The notes beneath the pieces were generated by a model, which was not told the origin of the DNA, made no database searches, and worked only from the letters and a program-made list of their open reading frames with translations. This document shows, one piece after another, positions 5,356-21,883 of a stretch of DNA of 32,274 nt. How positions within the stretch are numbered: position 1 is the first letter of the stretch; the number at the start of each line of letters is the position of its first letter. The translations under genes and the position numbers were made by a program. Location of the stretch: the NCBI GenBank assembly GCA_011053005.1, contig DRHW01000039.1, positions 1 to 32,274 of the forward strand, in the 5' to 3' direction. The stretch is from Methylophaga sp. (lineage in GTDB: Bacteria; Pseudomonadota; Gammaproteobacteria; Nitrosococcales; Methylophagaceae).

Positions 5356-6723
5356 ATGTCGACATTATTAGCAAGAGCCTCTGTGCTCCAAACATATGTA
5401 TTAGAGTTTTGGCGTATTAAAAAGCCATTAATCTTTGCTTTACTTACAGCAAGTTTTGCAACTGGCGCTTTAGCGCAACCACAACTTCCATCTCAGCCGC
5501 TTAGTTTGGAAACGGCTTTGCATATTGCAGAGCAACGATCCCAAGCTATTCTGGCGCAAGAGGCTTCAGCACTTGCCTCACAAGAAATGGCCGTTAGAGC
5601 CAAAGAACTTCCCGACCCCATTTTACAATTATCTCTGAATAATCTTCCTGTGAATGGATCTATGGCCTATAGTATTTCGGAAGATTTCATGACGATGCGT
5701 ACTCTAGGGATTTCTCAGACTTTCACTGGTGAAAATAAACGCCAAGCACGTGCAAATGTCTTCGAACGTAAAGTCCATACCGCTCAGATAGCTAAAGAAC
5801 TTACTATCAGCCAGCTCCGTCGAGAAACAGCATTAGCTTGGTTTGATCGATTTTATCAACAACAGATGGTAGCGCTGCTCGAAGAGCAGCAGAAAGAGGC
5901 TAAATTACAAGTGAATGCCTCTGAGGCATCTTATCGGTCTGGTCAGGGTCGCCAGTCTGACATATTTCTGGCCAAAACGACGGTAGCAGAAATCCAAGAT
6001 CGCATACTTCAGGCTCAAGCGAGTCTTAAAAACGCGACCACTACTCTAACGCGTTGGATCGGAGATACTGCTTACACTTCATTAGTACAACCGCCCGACA
6101 TCACACAGTCTCCCATCGACAAACTCCATTTAACTCACCAAATAAATGAGCATCCCGATATAGCGGTCATGGTCGCTCAGGAGTCTGTTGCAAGAGCCGA
6201 GGCCGAGGTGGCTCGTCAGGAAAAGCGTGTCGACTGGACTTGGTCGTTGATGTATAGCGAGCGTAGTTCTGCATTTTCAGACATGGTTTCAATCGGTGTC
6301 AACGTACCTTTGCAATGGAATCAAGAAAACCGACAGGATCGAGTTGTGGCCGCAGAACTAGCAAAAATTGAACAATTGCGCTCAGAACGCGAAGAAATGA
6401 TTCGTCAACATATCGCTGAAACGCAGCGTTGGCTTGACACTTGGAATAGTAATTTAATCCGTCTTTCAGACTATCAAGAGACTCTGATCCCACTTGCCAG
6501 CCAACGCACTCAAGCAACCTTGGCTCAGTATAGTGGCGGCAATGGAGAATTGAGTGAAGTACTCGATGCCCGAAAAATAGAGATTGTCACACGAATCGAA
6601 AGACTGCGAATTGAAATGGAAACCGCAGCTATCTGGGTTGCTTTGGAATATTTAGCATCACACAATGCTGCGATTGAATATGACGCTACGACTCAACAAT
6701 CCCACTTTTTGGAGACCAAATAA
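5356..6723 (+). CDS. cusC: CusC-like outer-membrane channel of the Cu+/Ag+ efflux pump
   Basis: 455 aa TolC-family protein with a long N-terminal region and a hydrophobic signal segment ending near GALAQ (about residue 40). Unlike E. coli CusC, no lipobox cysteine is visible at the cleavage site. Two OEP repeats follow: LSLETALHIAEQRSQAILAQ opens the first and LHLTHQINEHPDIAVMVAQE the second, with long coiled-coil helices. GISQTFTGENKRQARANVFE is typical of metal-efflux members. The channel spans the outer membrane and periplasm and docks CusA/CusB. The stop overlaps the cusB start by one base (TAATG), indicating translational coupling. The start codon has only a weak ribosome-binding site. 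Confidence 0.9.
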   Translation: MSTLLARASVLQTYVLEFWRIKKPLIFALLTASFATGALAQPQLPSQPLSLETALHIAEQRSQAILAQEASALASQEMAVRAKELPDPILQLSLNNLPVNGSMAYSISEDFMTMRTLGISQTFTGENKRQARANVFERKVHTAQIAKELTISQLRRETALAWFDRFYQQQMVALLEEQQKEAKLQVNASEASYRSGQGRQSDIFLAKTTVAEIQDRILQAQASLKNATTTLTRWIGDTAYTSLVQPPDITQSPIDKLHLTHQINEHPDIAVMVAQESVARAEAEVARQEKRVDWTWSLMYSERSSAFSDMVSIGVNVPLQWNQENRQDRVVAAELAKIEQLRSEREEMIRQHIAETQRWLDTWNSNLIRLSDYQETLIPLASQRTQATLAQYSGGNGELSEVLDARKIEIVTRIERLRIEMETAAIWVALEYLASHNAAIEYDATTQQSHFLETK

Positions 6724-8375
6724 TGAATCGTAAACAAATCACTTTTTTGTTATTGGCTATCGGAGTTGTGCTTGTTGCCATTTTTGCTGCTTATCAGTGG
6801 GGTATTCGTCAAGGTATGGATATGCCTCCAGTAGAATCAGACAAAATTCCTAGTGCTAAAGCTATTATAAACCCTTCAAATTGGGGGATCTCTGAAGGGG
6901 AAAAAGCCACACGACGACATATCGATACTGGGCTTAAAGCAGGCGAGATAGATCCAGTGACTGGCCGTAAAATTCTTTACTATCAAGATCCAATGGTACC
7001 AGGCAACCAATTTGAGGCGCCTGGTAAGTCTCCGTTTATGGATATGATGTTAGTGCCCGTTTATACGACAAGCACAGGTGAGGACACTTCTGAAACCGAG
7101 GAGCAAGGCGTTAGTATCAGTTCACGTATACAGCAAAACATTGGTATTCGTACTGCGCTGGTTACAAAAGGAAGCATTGCTAAGCAGGTGATTACCGTAG
7201 GCAGTATTGCTTGGAATGAACGAGATCAGGTCAATGTTCAAGCCCGAGCATTGGGTTACGTAGAAAAACTATATGCTAGTGCAACCTTGGACCGCGTCAA
7301 AAAAGGGCAACCATTACTCACACTCTATGTCCCAGAATGGGTAGCAATACAAGAAGATTTTTTTGCACTTAAAAGCATGCATGGCAATGGCATTCAACAA
7401 CTTATAGAAGCATCCATCGCTCGAATGCGCCAAGCAGGAATGAACGAAACACAAATTCGTCAAATAAAAAGCACTGGTCAACTGCAAACACAGATTACCA
7501 TTGTCGCCCCGATCAATGGTGTGGTCACTGAGCTAGTGGCTCGTGAAGGAATGACAATAACACCAGGTTCGACGCTGATGCGCATCAACGGTCTGGAAAC
7601 GGTCTGGGCCAATGCTGAGATTCCTGAAAGCCAGATTGAATTACTCAATATAGGTGATCCTGTTATAGCTAGCAGTTCAGCTTTTCCCAGCATCAACTTT
7701 AAAGGCGAAATTCAGGCATTGTTGCCGGAAGTGAACCCCATTACTCGTACACTCAAGGCTCGCATTGAACTAGCGAACCCTGAAGGTAGGCTCGTACCAG
7801 GCATGTTTGTGAACATGCAGTTAGCAGGTGGACAAAGTGAGAATACACTACTTGTGCCGAGTGAAGCACTTATCCGAACAGGTAAACGCACATTAGTGAT
7901 GCTCGCGGATGACAAAGGGAGTTTTCGTCCGGTTGAGGTCACTATTGGTATAGAAGCAGATGATCAAACCCAAATCAAACAGGGCCTGAAAGAAGGCGAT
8001 CGAATTGTGTCATCAGGCCAGTTCTTGGTAGATTCTGAGGCTAGCCTTAAAGGCATTGAAGCACGACTAAGCAACAAATCTTTATCTCAAAGTAACGACA
8101 AAACCATGTCTAAGATGGATATGGACAGTCATAAAACACAAGCTAGGATCGAGTCCATAAATGGGCAACGCCTGACGCTGACCCATCCTGATATTCCGAG
8201 CCTGCAATGGCCAGGAATGACTATGGAATTTGAGCTTTCGTCATCATTGAAACCTGAGGGATTGACCGTTGGTAAACAAATAGAAGTTCAGTTTCATTTA
8301 CAGGAGAACTCAGCACCTCTAATTACCGACATTCACCTATTATCTTCAGCCAGCCAAGCGGATGGTGCACAATGA
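6723..8375 (+). CDS. cusB: CusB-like periplasmic adaptor with C-terminal CusF-like domain
   Basis: 550 aa. An N-terminal membrane anchor (residues 7-24) is followed by a heavy-metal-binding domain (about 85-115: [27 protein letters not shown]), then the barrel-sandwich/hairpin adaptor core (about 135-450; [50 protein letters not shown]). From about 467 to 540 there is a full CusF-like fold with the Cu+/Ag+ ligand pattern His-x7-Trp-x2-Met-x-Met ([14 protein letters not shown]). E. coli CusB lacks this last domain. The adaptor links CusA to CusC and receives metal from CusF. It is coupled to cusC by TAATG and to cusA by ATGA. Confidence 0.93.
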
Positions 8376-11610: not shown

Positions 11611-11961
11611 ATGAATAAATTATTAATGTGTTCTTTCACAATCATTTTGTCTTGCACGACGACTTCAATTTTAGCCCAGCAGAACATGAATGATCACGAC
11701 ATGAAGAACATGACGCCAAAAACAGAGACATCGGAACAAAAGACGGTGCACATTGCTACAGGCATCGTCACCAAGCTTGATGTCAGCATTAAAAAGGTAA
11801 CCCTATCCCATGAACCGATCGAAAGTCTGAACTGGCCAGCCATGAGTATGGGGTTTTCGGTCAAAGATGAGAGCTTGCTAAATAAGCTTAGCGTTGGCAA
11901 AACGGTTAAGTTCGAGTTTATTAAAGCTGATAATGATTATGTCATCACAGCAGTCAACTAG
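11611..11961 (+). CDS. cusF: CusF-like periplasmic Cu+/Ag+ chaperone
   Basis: 116 aa with a signal peptide (MNKLLMCSFTIILSC..., cleaved near ILAQ), a Met/His-rich linker (QNMNDHDMKNM) and a single CusF fold. The metal site of E. coli CusF (His36, Trp44, Met47, Met49) is matched by SHEPIESLNWPAMSM. CusF delivers periplasmic Cu+/Ag+ to CusB/CusA. It is the last gene of the rightward cus block, 68 bp after cusA with a hairpin between, so its dosage may differ from the pump's. A second CusF-like domain is fused to CusB. Confidence 0.93.
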   Translation: MNKLLMCSFTIILSCTTTSILAQQNMNDHDMKNMTPKTETSEQKTVHIATGIVTKLDVSIKKVTLSHEPIESLNWPAMSMGFSVKDESLLNKLSVGKTVKFEFIKADNDYVITAVN

Positions 11962-16926: not shown

Positions 16927-17787
16927 TTAAAACATAAATCTTAAACCGGTAACAAACTGCGTATCACTCACATTTTGTCCGGCAGCGTGTCGATAATCAG
17001 CGGTGTTACCATAAGCATCTGTCCATTCCACACCAATATACGGTGCAAACTGGCGTGTTATTTCATAGCGTAGACGAAGACCAAGAGATACATCAGATAA
17101 TCCACTGCCTAAGTTATTATTGATATCATCCTCACCATAAAATGTGGCTGTCGCACGCGGTTGTAAGATCAGTTTTTGTGTGAAAAGCAGTTCGTATTCC
17201 GCTTCAATAGCCAATGCTGTTCGCCCGCTGTCACCGAGGTAGCCTGTGACATCCAGTTCAAACCAATACGGGGCCAAACCTTGAACCCCGAATGCGAGCC
17301 ATTGACGATCATCGCCTTCATCGTATTGATCTAATCTCACACCGAGTTGGGTGTCAAAATAAGTAGTAATAGCATGACCCCAAAGTAAGTCGGTCTGACT
17401 TTCTTCCAAGCGACTATCGACGATATCGCCTTCAGCTTTGACGACAAAACGATCGTAGGTTGTGCCATACCAGCCTTGTAAATCAAATACCGCACTGTCA
17501 CTTGGCCCGTTATACTCTAGGCGATTTCCAAGTACTGACCAGAAGGCATGTTCATCGGCCATTTTTAGTTGCCGAGGTCCTGATTGTGAATATGGGCCTT
17601 GCGTAAGGGTATAACCATCGGAATAAGCATCAGGATCACGGGCATCATCTGGCGCAGTACCCCCTTGCATTTGCATCTCTCCTTGAGCCATGTCGCCATG
17701 CTGCATTTCTGCTAATAGAGTAGGCGTATAAAGGCCGCTGACAATAACCATTAGACTAATAAGTGGATTTCTGTTTTTGTTACTCAT
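16927..17787 (-). CDS. copB: CopB outer-membrane copper-resistance protein
   Basis: 286 aa from the ATG at 17787, chosen over an upstream in-frame start because it has GAGGTGG before it and overlaps the oxidase stop as ATGA. A signal peptide is followed by a short Met/His/Gln-rich segment (EMQHGDMAQGEMQMQGG), shorter than in Pseudomonas CopB. The rest is a beta-barrel with family motifs WYGTTYDRFVVKAEGD, WLAFGVQGLAPYWFELD, LILQPRATATFYGEDD and a terminal Phe (TGLRFMF) for outer-membrane insertion. CopB/PcoB works with the oxidase CopA/PcoA; sequestration or transport of copper at the outer membrane is the usual proposal. Confidence 0.93.
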   Translation of the reverse strand: MSNKNRNPLISLMVIVSGLYTPTLLAEMQHGDMAQGEMQMQGGTAPDDARDPDAYSDGYTLTQGPYSQSGPRQLKMADEHAFWSVLGNRLEYNGPSDSAVFDLQGWYGTTYDRFVVKAEGDIVDSRLEESQTDLLWGHAITTYFDTQLGVRLDQYDEGDDRQWLAFGVQGLAPYWFELDVTGYLGDSGRTALAIEAEYELLFTQKLILQPRATATFYGEDDINNNLGSGLSDVSLGLRLRYEITRQFAPYIGVEWTDAYGNTADYRHAAGQNVSDTQFVTGLRFMF

Positions 17788-19601
17788 GACACCACCACCT
17801 CGCGGAACATACCCGCATCCATATGAAAGAGCAGATGACAATGCCAAGCCCAGCGGCCTACATCATGAGGGGTCGTTAAAAAACTAATGCGCTGAGCAGG
17901 CTGCACTGGAATAGTATGTCGACGAACTAGCAGCTCACCTTGATCACTTTCTAAATCGCTCCACATACCATGCAGATGCATCGGGTGCGTCATCATCGTG
18001 TCATTTTGCAAGATGATTCGGACACGTTCACCCTGTCGTAGTGATACGGGCGTGCTCTTACCAAACTCCAATCCGTCAAATGACCAGCTGTAACGTTCCA
18101 TATTGCCCGTTAGATGAAACTCAAGCTCTTTTGTGGGAGGACGGCGGTCATTCAATACACCATCGATGGATCTTAAATCTGCAAGGGTCAATACTCGACG
18201 ACCATTTTTGCGAAGTCCAATTCCCGGATCATCAAGGCTAGTACGCGGCGTATCCACTCGCATATCCACCGACGGGCCGTATTCAGTTCGCGCATGATTG
18301 ACCTTTTTAGAGGGGATAGCCAGTGGATTTGATGCGCCGTGTTGCATGCCGTGCATACTGTGATCCATACTTTCCATGCCAGCCATACCTTGCATGCCGT
18401 CCATACCTTGCATGTTGTCCATACCTTTCATGCCAGCCATACCCTTCATATCGCCCATCATGTCTGCCATGGTTAGCCACTCGATAGGATCGAGAGCCGG
18501 TACTGGTGCAGAGAGTCCTTGTCGTACGGCTAATGTGCCACAGACATAACCACTGCGTTCTATACTCTGAGCAAAAACAGTATAAGCATCGTCCTTGGGT
18601 TCAACTAAAATATCATATGTCTCACCAGGACCAAATCGAAATTCATCGACAGAAATAGGCTCTACATCTTGGCCGTCAGACTGTACTACCGTCAGTTTTA
18701 AACCCGGAATGCGTACATCGTAAAATGTATTACTGGAACCATTAATAAAGCGCAGTCGCACGCGGTCACCATTTTGAAATAATCCCGTCCAGTTGCCTGC
18801 GGGTGTTGTACCGTTCATCAGGTAAGTCATTGTAGCTGCTGACACATCGCTCAAATCAGTAGGGCTCATGCGCATCTTATTCCACATCTTGCGTTTGTCT
18901 AATGCGGCTTGTAATCCTATCGCTGAAACATCATCTGTGAAATCAAAAAAAGTCGGCTGATTAACATTATAAATATCACTTTGCATTTTCAATTTGCTAA
19001 AGACATGCATAGGATCATCATCGCTCCAATCAGAGAGCTGCATAACGTAATCCTTGTCTGCTTTAATGCGCTCGCCACCGCGCGGTTCAATGATTAATGC
19101 GCCATACATACCAGTCATTTCTTGAAAGGCACTGTGGGAGTGGTACCAAAAGGTGCCACTTTGTTGTAGTTTAAAACGATAGGTAAAGGTTTCTCCCGGG
19201 GCAATGCCCTTATAGCTAATACCTGGAACACCATCCATTTGATAAGGTAAGATAATGCCATGCCAGTGAATCGAAGTAGAGACGGTAAGATTGTTCGTGA
19301 CACGAATGGTGACTTCGTCACCTTCGCGTAGATGCAAAGTGGGCGCAGGTATTGACCCATTAATCGTCGTTGCCATACGTGTTACGCCGGTAAAATTAAC
19401 CGGCAATGAGCCAATAATCAGATCAATTTCAGGGCCTTTGAGTGCCGGCGTTGAGTTGAACGCTGTTTGGCGACTCATCGCGGCTTGTAACCACGTCGGA
19501 GTCATCCCTAAAACGCCACCTGCCGCTAAGCCTTGTACAAAACGACGACGACTGAGGCGTAAGGCTTGCGCTTGTTCTGGCACTGATTGCGTCACGGGCA
19601 T
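17784..19601 (-). CDS. copA: CopA/PcoA-type multicopper oxidase, Tat-exported
   Basis: 605 aa. A twin-arginine signal (LSRRRFVQGLAAGG, residues 16-29) sends the folded protein to the periplasm. All four copper-ligand blocks are present: HWHG 112-115, HSH 154-156, HPMHLHG 539-545 and HCHLLFHMDAGM 587-598 (the Cys-His pair joins the type 1 and type 3 sites). A Met/Gly-rich insert at about 378-422 (repeated GMxGM and DxMxGM) is typical for handling extra Cu+. The family oxidises Cu+ to Cu2+ and may oxidise catechols. The start has AAGGAG three bases upstream, unusually close. It is divergent from copR with a 56-bp palindrome between, and overlaps copB. Confidence 0.96.
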   Translation of the reverse strand: MPVTQSVPEQAQALRLSRRRFVQGLAAGGVLGMTPTWLQAAMSRQTAFNSTPALKGPEIDLIIGSLPVNFTGVTRMATTINGSIPAPTLHLREGDEVTIRVTNNLTVSTSIHWHGIILPYQMDGVPGISYKGIAPGETFTYRFKLQQSGTFWYHSHSAFQEMTGMYGALIIEPRGGERIKADKDYVMQLSDWSDDDPMHVFSKLKMQSDIYNVNQPTFFDFTDDVSAIGLQAALDKRKMWNKMRMSPTDLSDVSAATMTYLMNGTTPAGNWTGLFQNGDRVRLRFINGSSNTFYDVRIPGLKLTVVQSDGQDVEPISVDEFRFGPGETYDILVEPKDDAYTVFAQSIERSGYVCGTLAVRQGLSAPVPALDPIEWLTMADMMGDMKGMAGMKGMDNMQGMDGMQGMAGMESMDHSMHGMQHGASNPLAIPSKKVNHARTEYGPSVDMRVDTPRTSLDDPGIGLRKNGRRVLTLADLRSIDGVLNDRRPPTKELEFHLTGNMERYSWSFDGLEFGKSTPVSLRQGERVRIILQNDTMMTHPMHLHGMWSDLESDQGELLVRRHTIPVQPAQRISFLTTPHDVGRWAWHCHLLFHMDAGMFREVVVS

Positions 19602-19655
19602 GTTCTCCTTAAATTGAAGTTACTGAATTTTCGACTATCCTAGGCTACAGACTCT

Positions 19656-19711
19656 GTCACACAGATGACTGAAAGATTACAAAGTTGTAATCTTTCAGTC
19701 ATCTGTGTGAC
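19656..19711. promoter_or_regulatory. Perfect 56-bp palindrome with CopR-like box between the oxidase gene and copR
   Basis: Two 27-base arms (19656-19682 and 19685-19711) are exact reverse complements around AG. The centre, ATTACAA-AG-TTGTAAT (19676-19691), matches the CopR/CusR type of box. It lies 54 bp from the oxidase start and 68 bp from copR, so one site could drive both promoters. Arms this long exceed what a response-regulator dimer needs. Confidence 0.8.
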
Positions 19712-19779
19712 GGCAAACATTTATTAAACTGTTTTGGACATCGGCAAAAAATTAGGCAGAGCAAAGAGATTAAAAATTT

Positions 19780-20466
19780 ATGCGGCTATTAGTAGTGGAA
19801 GACGAAATAAAAACGGGTGATTATATACGTCAAGGTCTCACTGAGGCTGGCTTTATGGTGACATTGGCACGTAACGGACTGGATGGCCATCACCTTGCGA
19901 TGACCGAAAGCTTTGACTTGGTACTGTTAGACGTGATGCTTCCTGATATTGATGGATTTCGTATTTTACAGTCTTTACGTGAAGCGGGCCGACAGACAGC
20001 GGTGTTGTTTCTCACCGCTCGAGACAGTGTAGATGATCGTGTCAAAGGTTTAGAACTCGGTGCTGATGACTATCTTGTCAAGCCTTTTGCTTTTTCTGAG
20101 CTGTTGGCTCGGGTGCGAACCTTATTGCGTCGAAGTGTAGTGCCAGTATTCACGGAATATCTCACTGTGTCTGATCTCACTTTAGATCTGCCGCGCCGTC
20201 GAGCTACACGCGCAGAACGTAAAATCAATCTTAGTCATAAAGAGTTTTGTCTATTAGAATTGTTAGTGCGAAGACAAGGAGAAGTACTTCCACGGACACT
20301 CATTGCATCTCAGGTCTGGGACATGAACTTCGATTCCGATACTAATGTAATTGACGTTGCCATCCGGCGCTTACGTGCAAAAATCGATGATAATTTTCCT
20401 ACCAAACTAATTCACACCGTACGAGGTATGGGTTACAAGTTGGAGGTCGAAGATGAAACTACGTAA
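19780..20466 (+). CDS. copR: CopR/CusR-type response regulator
   Basis: 228 aa OmpR-family regulator. Receiver domain 1-115: acidic pocket VVEDE (Glu7, Asp8, Glu9), phosphoacceptor Asp51 (LLDVMLPD), Thr79 and Lys101 (DYLVKPF). DNA-binding winged helix 127-225 with [18 protein letters not shown] and [14 protein letters not shown]. Close similarity to the copper/silver group ([17 protein letters not shown]) and the adjacent oxidase gene support copper control. The stop lies inside the start region of copS (14-bp overlap), so both are made together. The ribosome-binding site is weak (AAAGAG about 12 nt upstream). Confidence 0.93.
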
Positions 20467-21883
20467 GCTTAACCGACAAAGCGTGCATCCTTTGTCGTTA
20501 ACGACACGAGTGATGGCATTCGTAGCAATAGCCTTTGGTCTTAGTCTGCTACTCATTAGTCATTTGGTGCAAAACGCTGTTGAACACCATTTTGCCGAGC
20601 AGGACGCCGATGAGCTGAAAGTGATCACAAAGTCTGTCGAACAAGCGTTACGAAATGCTGCTGGAGATACATCTCGCGTCACAGAAATGCTATCTCATGC
20701 TGTTTCAGGGCATCATGGTGTTTATTTTCAAGTTTGGGATGAACAAGGCAGACTTATTTTTGGGCCTAGTGATCTTAAGCTAACTCAAGCTGTCAATGAT
20801 TATGCGTCTGTAGCCCTTATTCGAGCTGATAATTTATACCGTTGGCAGGCGGATGATATAACCTATCGAGGTAGCATCACGCAAACCCTGATTGCTGGCG
20901 AAAAATTCCGTATCGTTGCCGCTATCGATATGGATTTTCATATCCACTTTTTGAATAATTTCCGTCATAGTTTATGGCTGATTATGATATTAGCAGGCGC
21001 TTTCACGCTGCTTGCCGCTTGGTATGGTGTACATCAGGGTCACGCGCCATTGCGTGGTTTGAGCGAGATAATGAGTGACGTAAAGGCCGATCGTCTTCAT
21101 GTGCGTCTTGATCCTGATGGTGTGCCCGATGAGTTGAAAGTATTAGTGAACTCTTTCAACCACATGATAGGGCGATTGGATGAAAGCTTCACTCGGCTTT
21201 CCCATTTTTCGGCCGACATTGCTCACGAACTTCGCACGCCTATTACCAATCTGATAACCCAAACTCAAGTTGCCTTGGGCAAACCTAGAAGCCTAGAAGA
21301 GTACCAAGAAGTACTTTACTCAAATCTGGAGGAGCAAGAACGCTTGGCTAAAATGGTCAATGATATGCTGTGGTTAGCACAAAGTGAGCACGGTCTAGTT
21401 AAATTAAAAAGAGAATTATTAGATCTAAAACAAGAAGTGCTGGAGCTATTTGAGTTTTTCGAAGCATTAGCAGAAGAAAAGCAGATTGAATTAGTGTTAC
21501 AAAGTACTGGGCCAACTCCAATGATCTATGGAGATCGAGGCATGTTACGTCGGGCAATCTCTAATCTATTATCTAATGGATTACGATACGCACCCACAGG
21601 GAAAAAAATAACAGTTAAGATAGATCAGATGGCAACAAGCTATGTCGAGGTTAGTGTCGAAAATACAGGTCTGATAATCCCTGCTGAACATTTATCAAAA
21701 CTATTCGACCGCTTCTATCAAGTTGATCCTTCACGCCATCGTCTTAGTGGCGGAGCAGGTTTGGGTTTAGCAATCACTAAATCTATAATTGAAGCTCACG
21801 ATGGAAATATCGTTGCCTACTCAAATCATGATGTGACACGTTTTATCTTTAGCTTACCCTCACGATTGAATGAAGGTGTATAA
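20453..21883 (+). CDS. copS: CopS/CusS-type sensor histidine kinase
   Basis: 476 aa, with GGAGG six bases before the ATG. Two membrane segments (about 20-41 and 174-193) bracket a periplasmic sensor domain of about 130 residues with several His ([19 protein letters not shown]) but none of the dense Met runs seen in the rest of the cluster. A HAMP region follows, then the H box [16 protein letters not shown] with phospho-His258, the N box ([16 protein letters not shown]) and G boxes ([16 protein letters not shown]). It phosphorylates the upstream regulator on sensing periplasmic Cu+ or Ag+; the ligand is inferred from context. Confidence 0.92.

Follow-up and report, generated by a model that had tools for sequence, protein, structure and literature searches.

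The 56-bp palindrome that separates the divergent copper-resistance genes copA and copR in this Methylophaga genome is very probably, as judged from its anatomy and from homologues, a bidirectional CopR operator-promoter at which CopR is predicted to bind. Given such an operator, the identity of its two arms probably arose by template switching, through which one arm would have been copied onto the other, and the two propositions taken jointly are favoured here with moderate confidence. The operator belongs to a known kind, and its bidirectional architecture has already been described for AgrR, as the available text of that report shows (PMC7380067); the unusual part, in the sequences compared, appears to be the identity of the arms, variable spacers included.

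The palindrome and its genomic setting

The window, that is, the whole stretch of 32,274 nucleotides that was analysed, harbours the palindrome in the gap between the starts of copA (19601, − strand) and copR (19780, + strand). The central box of the palindrome adjoins a CopR-type response regulator and copper-resistance genes (TIGR01387 and TIGR01480 above cut-off), and the copper/silver equivalog NF007346 scored 333.8 on copR, below its cut-off of 420. The four neighbouring genes are:

16927-17847, − strand: copB (PF05275)
17784-19601, − strand: copA, copper-resistance multicopper oxidase (TIGR01480, 908.8 bits, cutoff 478.95)
19780-20466, + strand: copR, heavy-metal response regulator (TIGR01387, 333.7 bits, cutoff 279.2)
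20453-21883, + strand: copS, heavy-metal sensor kinase (TIGR01386, 456 bits, cutoff 292.55)

They are part of a metal-resistance region (1620-31792) that holds ArsC, ArsB, an FMN reductase, CusCBA-like efflux with CusF domains, a copper P-type ATPase with a MerR-type regulator, DUF411 and a cytochrome c, and that continues through copAB, copRS and DUF305 to a phage-type integrase, located near the right end of the window, and a Fic protein. The region looks like a genomic island or mobile element. Within it, the CusB-like membrane-fusion protein (6723-8375) carries a CusF copper-binding domain at its C-terminus, and a separate CusF gene comes after it, at 11611-11961.

The palindrome is real and far beyond chance. 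A preliminary description of the locus had reported 56 bp of perfect symmetry between the oxidase gene and copR, and this was borne out by an inverted-repeat computation: the arms (19656-19682 and 19685-19711) are 27 nt each and 100% complementary, with two unpaired bases (AG) between them, such that 54 of the 56 bases are paired. For the size and composition of the window, the chance expectation of perfect arms of 27 bp with a loop of at most 12 is ~5e-11, and the second-longest perfect arms within the window measure 13 nt. Twenty 20-kb stretches sampled from this genome, together 400 kb of its 2.89 Mb, yielded 39 perfect inverted repeats (loop up to 12) with arms of at least 10 nt; the longest perfect arms there were 18 nt, with a 7-nt loop, and many of the top repeats resemble terminator stems with loops of several bases. 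As single-stranded DNA, the 88 bases around the palindrome were predicted to fold at −29.9 kcal/mol (z = −10.4).

Predicted operator elements and promoters

The palindrome is composed of a 16-bp box and, on each side, a spacer of 6 nt followed by 14 nt that run from GTCA to GAC. Together with the predicted −10 boxes beyond it, the following elements were annotated:

19656-19711, no strand: 56-bp palindrome, 27-nt arms plus 2-nt centre (inverted-repeat computation)
19676-19691, no strand: central 6-4-6 CopR/AgrR-type box ATTACAAAGTTGTAAT (exact match to ATTACAANNTTGTAAT)
19698-19702, + strand: copR-side flanking half-site GTCAT, 6 nt from the box and 11 bp in phase with TGTAAT
19665-19669, − strand: copA-side flanking half-site GTCAT, the mirror image, 6 nt from the box
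19709-19711, + strand: copR-side outer element GAC, a further 11 bp out, the final bases of the palindrome
19656-19658, − strand: copA-side outer element GAC (GACAG with the next two bases)
19725-19730, + strand: predicted −10 of copR, TAAACT, 33 nt past the box and outside the palindrome
19637-19642, − strand: predicted −10 of copA, TAGGAT, 33 nt past the box and outside the palindrome

The likeness of the central 16 bp to a CopR box, remarked on earlier, proved exact, with the core ATKACA-N4-TGTMAT matched without deviation at 19676-19691; the consensus of the AgrR box is given as ATKACANNNNTGTMAT in the available text of PMC7380067. An in-phase flanking half-site GTCAT is present on both sides of the box, and TGTAAT, GTCAT and GAC are spaced 11 bp apart. 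Such a step is what one expects where regulators of the OmpR/PhoB type bind in tandem. The extra half-sites on both sides fit the binding of more than one dimer, so that the earlier suggestion of several CopR dimers may well hold.

All elements of the layout described below for relatives are present on both sides of the window site, with both predicted −10 boxes at the conserved position. From these boxes, transcription likely starts at ~19630 for copA and ~19737 for copR, in both cases outside the palindrome. GTCA together with the −10-like TAnnnT on both sides, as in relatives, argues for a bidirectional CopR operator-promoter. In such an operator the dyad box (19676-19691) would be common to two promoters facing away from each other, one to copA and one to copR, each made up of the box half TGTAAT, then GTCAT and GAC at 11-bp steps, and then the −10. 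Phosphorylated CopR would bind the box as a dimer, additional CopR would occupy the flanking half-sites, and bound CopR would substitute for a −35 element; both operons would be switched on together, with autoregulation. The anatomy was established by comparison with related loci, and binding and activation are extrapolated from homologues.

Operator layout in related loci

CopR relatives were collected from 59 related genomes and 369 genomes of the class (at most 30 loci taken from each), from 4 and 63 genomes of two more groups, from named genomes (80 of 596 relatives kept) and from plasmids (12 fetched of 3032 records found). Before counting, loci with CopR of less than 60% identity (66 of 163 rows) and near-duplicates (at most 6 differences) were dropped. 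For the layout counts the box was chosen on its own letters only, regardless of its flanks; 79 loci, the window's own included, had a unique best box, and without the latter 68 were non-redundant, among which 32 had a divergent copA.

In divergent copA/copR loci, a side often reads 6 nt, GTCA, 7 nt, outer element, 11 nt and TAnnnT, where the outer element in relatives is GAC, often GACAG. Among the 32 non-redundant divergent loci, GTCA at +6 was found on the copA side in 30 and on the copR side in 22, and TAnnnT at +33 in 28 and 17, respectively (mean at other offsets 0.27 and 0.43). The strict outer GAC/GTC at +17 was found on the copA side in 18 but on the copR side in only 5, and therefore ‘three half-sites each way' is no family-wide rule; what recurs on either side is the inner half-site and the −10, while the outer element is largely a copA-side feature. 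For the 36 loci in which no divergent copA was detected, GTCA was located on the side away from copR in 24 and on the copR side in 6, and TAnnnT in 20 and 12, respectively. The proposition that relatives keep only the central 16 bp is thus half right: the rest of the arms is not kept, but GTCA and the −10 usually are, on both sides, and so, chiefly towards copA, is the outer GAC/GTC (18 versus 5 of 32).

With up to 3 mismatches allowed, the full two-sided layout was found in 27 of the 369 sampled genomes of the class, versus 2 of 369 for a reversed control pattern. The family of the window's genome includes genomes whose CopR operators closely resemble the operator on a Methylophaga thalassica plasmid.

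Several genomes harbour two matches to the two-sided operator pattern (G249:C25:98276-98331, G346:C62:2353-2408, G281:C1:745017-745072 and others). Paired matches are located on the same contig within ~11 kb in G249, G111, G240 and G352, and some of the second matches carry 2-3 mismatches. At L181 and L185, from two related genomes of the same family (G429 and G409), the copR-like matches contain one in-frame TAA. At L024 (G045), an inverted repeat at 1452-1495, with 20-nt arms and a 4-nt loop and without the CopR box, lies just before a copR-like match.

Symmetry across two-sided operators

The survey of symmetric runs and the comparison of arm pairs took in only those sites where GTCA is exact on each side. 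The symmetric run beyond the box, measured in 38 non-redundant two-sided operators, was 0-3 bp in 33 (0 bp in 10 loci, 1 in 18, 2 in 3 and 3 in 2), 10-13 bp in four (10, 11, 12 and 13, one each) and 20 bp in the window's operator alone, with no run length falling between 3 and 10 bp. As none of the other 37 is symmetric that far, recent formation, one of the earlier suggestions, fits the comparison. Over 20 nt, the two arms agree at all 20 positions here versus 4-16 (mean 9.75, sd 2.93) in 32 non-redundant divergent loci, a set assembled separately from the 32 loci of the layout counts and with boxes picked by a GTCA-favouring score, so that GTCA counts within it are biased. At five of the six spacer positions, the arms agree in only 27-43% of the 37 other two-sided loci.

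The four other loci with long symmetry (G340, plus G120, G471 and G472, these three all from genus g86) have four different 6-nt spacers, those of the symmetric g86 operators being gattga, gattgt and ggttgt. Between the g86 relatives L229 and L230, whose CopR proteins are 95.9% identical, L230 is symmetric and L229 is not, and L231, whose CopR is 85% identical to either of theirs, is likewise symmetric. Between arms of different loci, identical spacers were rare (6 of 5040 arm pairs). Runs of up to 13 bases can nevertheless be common to arms from different but related loci; between opposite arms of different loci the largest run was 5 in a 26-locus set, and 13 in a wider set with all arm pairs.

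In a permutation test on 26 two-sided loci, agreement of the 6-nt spacers gave P = 0.011, with L137 and L140 contributing most, while the 12 non-motif positions gave P = 0.07, the inner six P = 0.54 and the outer control P = 0.32. A binomial P of 1e-7 for the symmetric loci is too small and overstates the case, because three of the four loci fall in one genus and may represent one event.

Searches for further copies

The extended arm, consisting of the box plus CTTTCAGTCA, was found in exact form at this locus only among the 369 genomes of the class. The 151 bases around the site had no match in E. coli genomes. A 361-base query matched 2568 plasmid records, and among the 20 listed only Glaciecola pGLAAG01 (L115) had a match that reached the operator. 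In a genome set with one genome per species, and in named collections that may lack records close to the window, no second strain of the species turned up; the closest CopR found is 87% identical.

A 26-base one-sided pattern, used to look for further CopR targets in the genome, had no other match with 0 or 1 mismatch. At up to 3 mismatches it had 28 matches forward and 13 reverse, versus 16 and 23 for the control, and these were rejected as noise. A promoter-half pattern with up to 3 mismatches had 7 matches in the window versus 4.61 expected, not above chance, and the two best were the palindrome's own arms.

Candidate arm copying and candidate donor arm

The empty gap between 3 and 10 bp suggests that tracts were copied and did not converge gradually. 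In relatives the corresponding inverted repeat is imperfect, and a template switch at such a repeat (‘quasipalindrome correction') would copy one arm onto the other; template switching associated with quasipalindromes is established in E. coli, according to the available text of PMC7202029. The candidate copied tract in the window, extending 20 bp past the box, is the longest seen.

The copA arm is, on modest evidence, the likelier donor, which would have been copied onto the copR arm. Eleven loci have CopR at least 81% identical, of which five near-duplicates were left out and six compared; the six are not independent, four being closely related to one another. GAC at positions 18-20 is found on the side away from copR in 6/6 and on the copR side in 0/6, while in the window it is present in both arms, which points to copA as the donor. 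Compared with the six outward arms, the arm sequence common to both sides of the window's operator agrees at 79 of 120 positions, and compared with the copR arms at 61 of 120. Five of these loci have copA as the outward gene; in the stretch fetched for L179 no copA was found. The copA-side box half does not decide the donor, because it is TGTCAT in the nearest loci (L134 and L163) and TGTAAT in the other four and here. Over the wider set, profile likelihood favours a copA donor by only 2.5 bits.

Divergent CopR operators in general might be sites of repeated arm-to-arm copying, with their promoters evolving in concert, an idea that is put forward tentatively. Template switching at the dyad box would then overwrite the upstream half of one promoter with that of the other. 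Among the papers listed by full-text literature searches, no title or opening of an abstract dealt with arm copying in CopR operators.

Alternative explanations

The main rival to arm copying keeps the same bidirectional CopR operator and attributes its full symmetry to selection: CopR, or several dimers, would read the spacer and the outer bases, and equal arms would give equal promoters. Symmetric GTCA half-sites are indeed common on both sides in relatives (30/32 and 22/32), and spacer agreement is slightly above that of permuted pairings (P = 0.011). Yet a selected spacer is hard to reconcile with agreement of only 27-43% at five of its six positions in the 37 other loci, and the symmetry is distributed in two classes (0-3 bp or at least 10 bp) rather than graded, so that selection appears an unlikely source of the identical arms. 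A plain conserved CopR operator, with perfect arms as a coincidence of motif conservation and drift, is the least probable of all the readings: column frequencies alone lead one to expect matches at ~8.6 of 20 arm positions, but the per-position match probabilities, estimated from 21 loci, multiply to 5e-9 over the 20 positions, and the opposite-arm run between different loci reaches at most 5 in the 26-locus set (13 in the wider set).

That arms so long and perfect are absent from the 400-kb sample might also be taken to indicate an assembly or amplification artefact, a fold-back duplicating one arm. The palindrome, however, is positioned inside a 32-kb contig, away from its ends, both sides retain a −10 at the spacing expected of two real promoters, and shorter versions occur in other genomes, all of which make an artefact very unlikely. 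The very stable predicted fold (−29.9 kcal/mol, z −10.4) would suit control of both genes by a cruciform or an RNA hairpin (as the preliminary description had also entertained), a bidirectional terminator or attenuator included. Since both predicted −10 boxes are outside the palindrome, however, neither mRNA should contain it, which argues against RNA hairpin control, and for a cruciform role no positive evidence was obtained. When the sequence was read directly, no T run followed either arm, and the palindrome is upstream of both genes, in contrast to an intrinsic terminator, which combines a hairpin and a T run downstream of a gene; that candidate was rejected. In addition, relatives keep the protein-site pattern without full pairing, and control by a folded structure is considered highly improbable. 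Overall, the interpretation in the preliminary description is partly supported.

Relation to known systems and implications

According to the available text of PMC7380067, AgrR of Cupriavidus metallidurans binds a 6-4-6 box, which at some operators is accompanied by in-phase direct repeats on one or both sides; it protects 31-35 nt between copA2 and copR2, and at the prsQ2 promoter an altered promoter-proximal repeat largely affected activation. The flanks in the copA2-copR2 region are described there as imperfect repeats, whereas in the window they do not differ over 20 nt and form part of a symmetric unit of 56 bp; the regulator, too, differs, being CopR-type here, with predicted binding, and AgrR in C. 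metallidurans. In Pseudomonas paraeruginosa, the pcoA2 and cusR operons are both controlled from a CusR/CopR/CzcR palindrome that separates them (PMC11195947), and in Methylophaga, too, a single palindromic site stands between a multicopper-oxidase operon and a divergent regulator operon, yet the P. paraeruginosa palindrome is short, the available text of that report describing no long symmetric flanks, while the one in the window is long. CopR footprints of Pseudomonas putida contain several TGACA-like motifs in the protected regions (PMC12428095), similar to the several half-sites here, but nothing in the available text presents them as a long perfect palindrome. In E. coli, template-switch mutations make an imperfect inverted repeat perfect, or closer to perfect, by arm copying, as demonstrated with reporter genes in the available text of PMC7202029, whereas for the Methylophaga locus the copying is proposed from sequence comparison and concerns a natural operator.

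Transcription-factor sites common to two divergent genes are often imperfect inverted repeats, which would make them natural targets of template switching. Copper loci may be convenient for testing arm copying, as a pattern search can locate their two-sided operators. Repeated copying of arms at such operators, if it occurs, could make the strength of a promoter jump in one mutation and would keep the promoters of the two genes matched.
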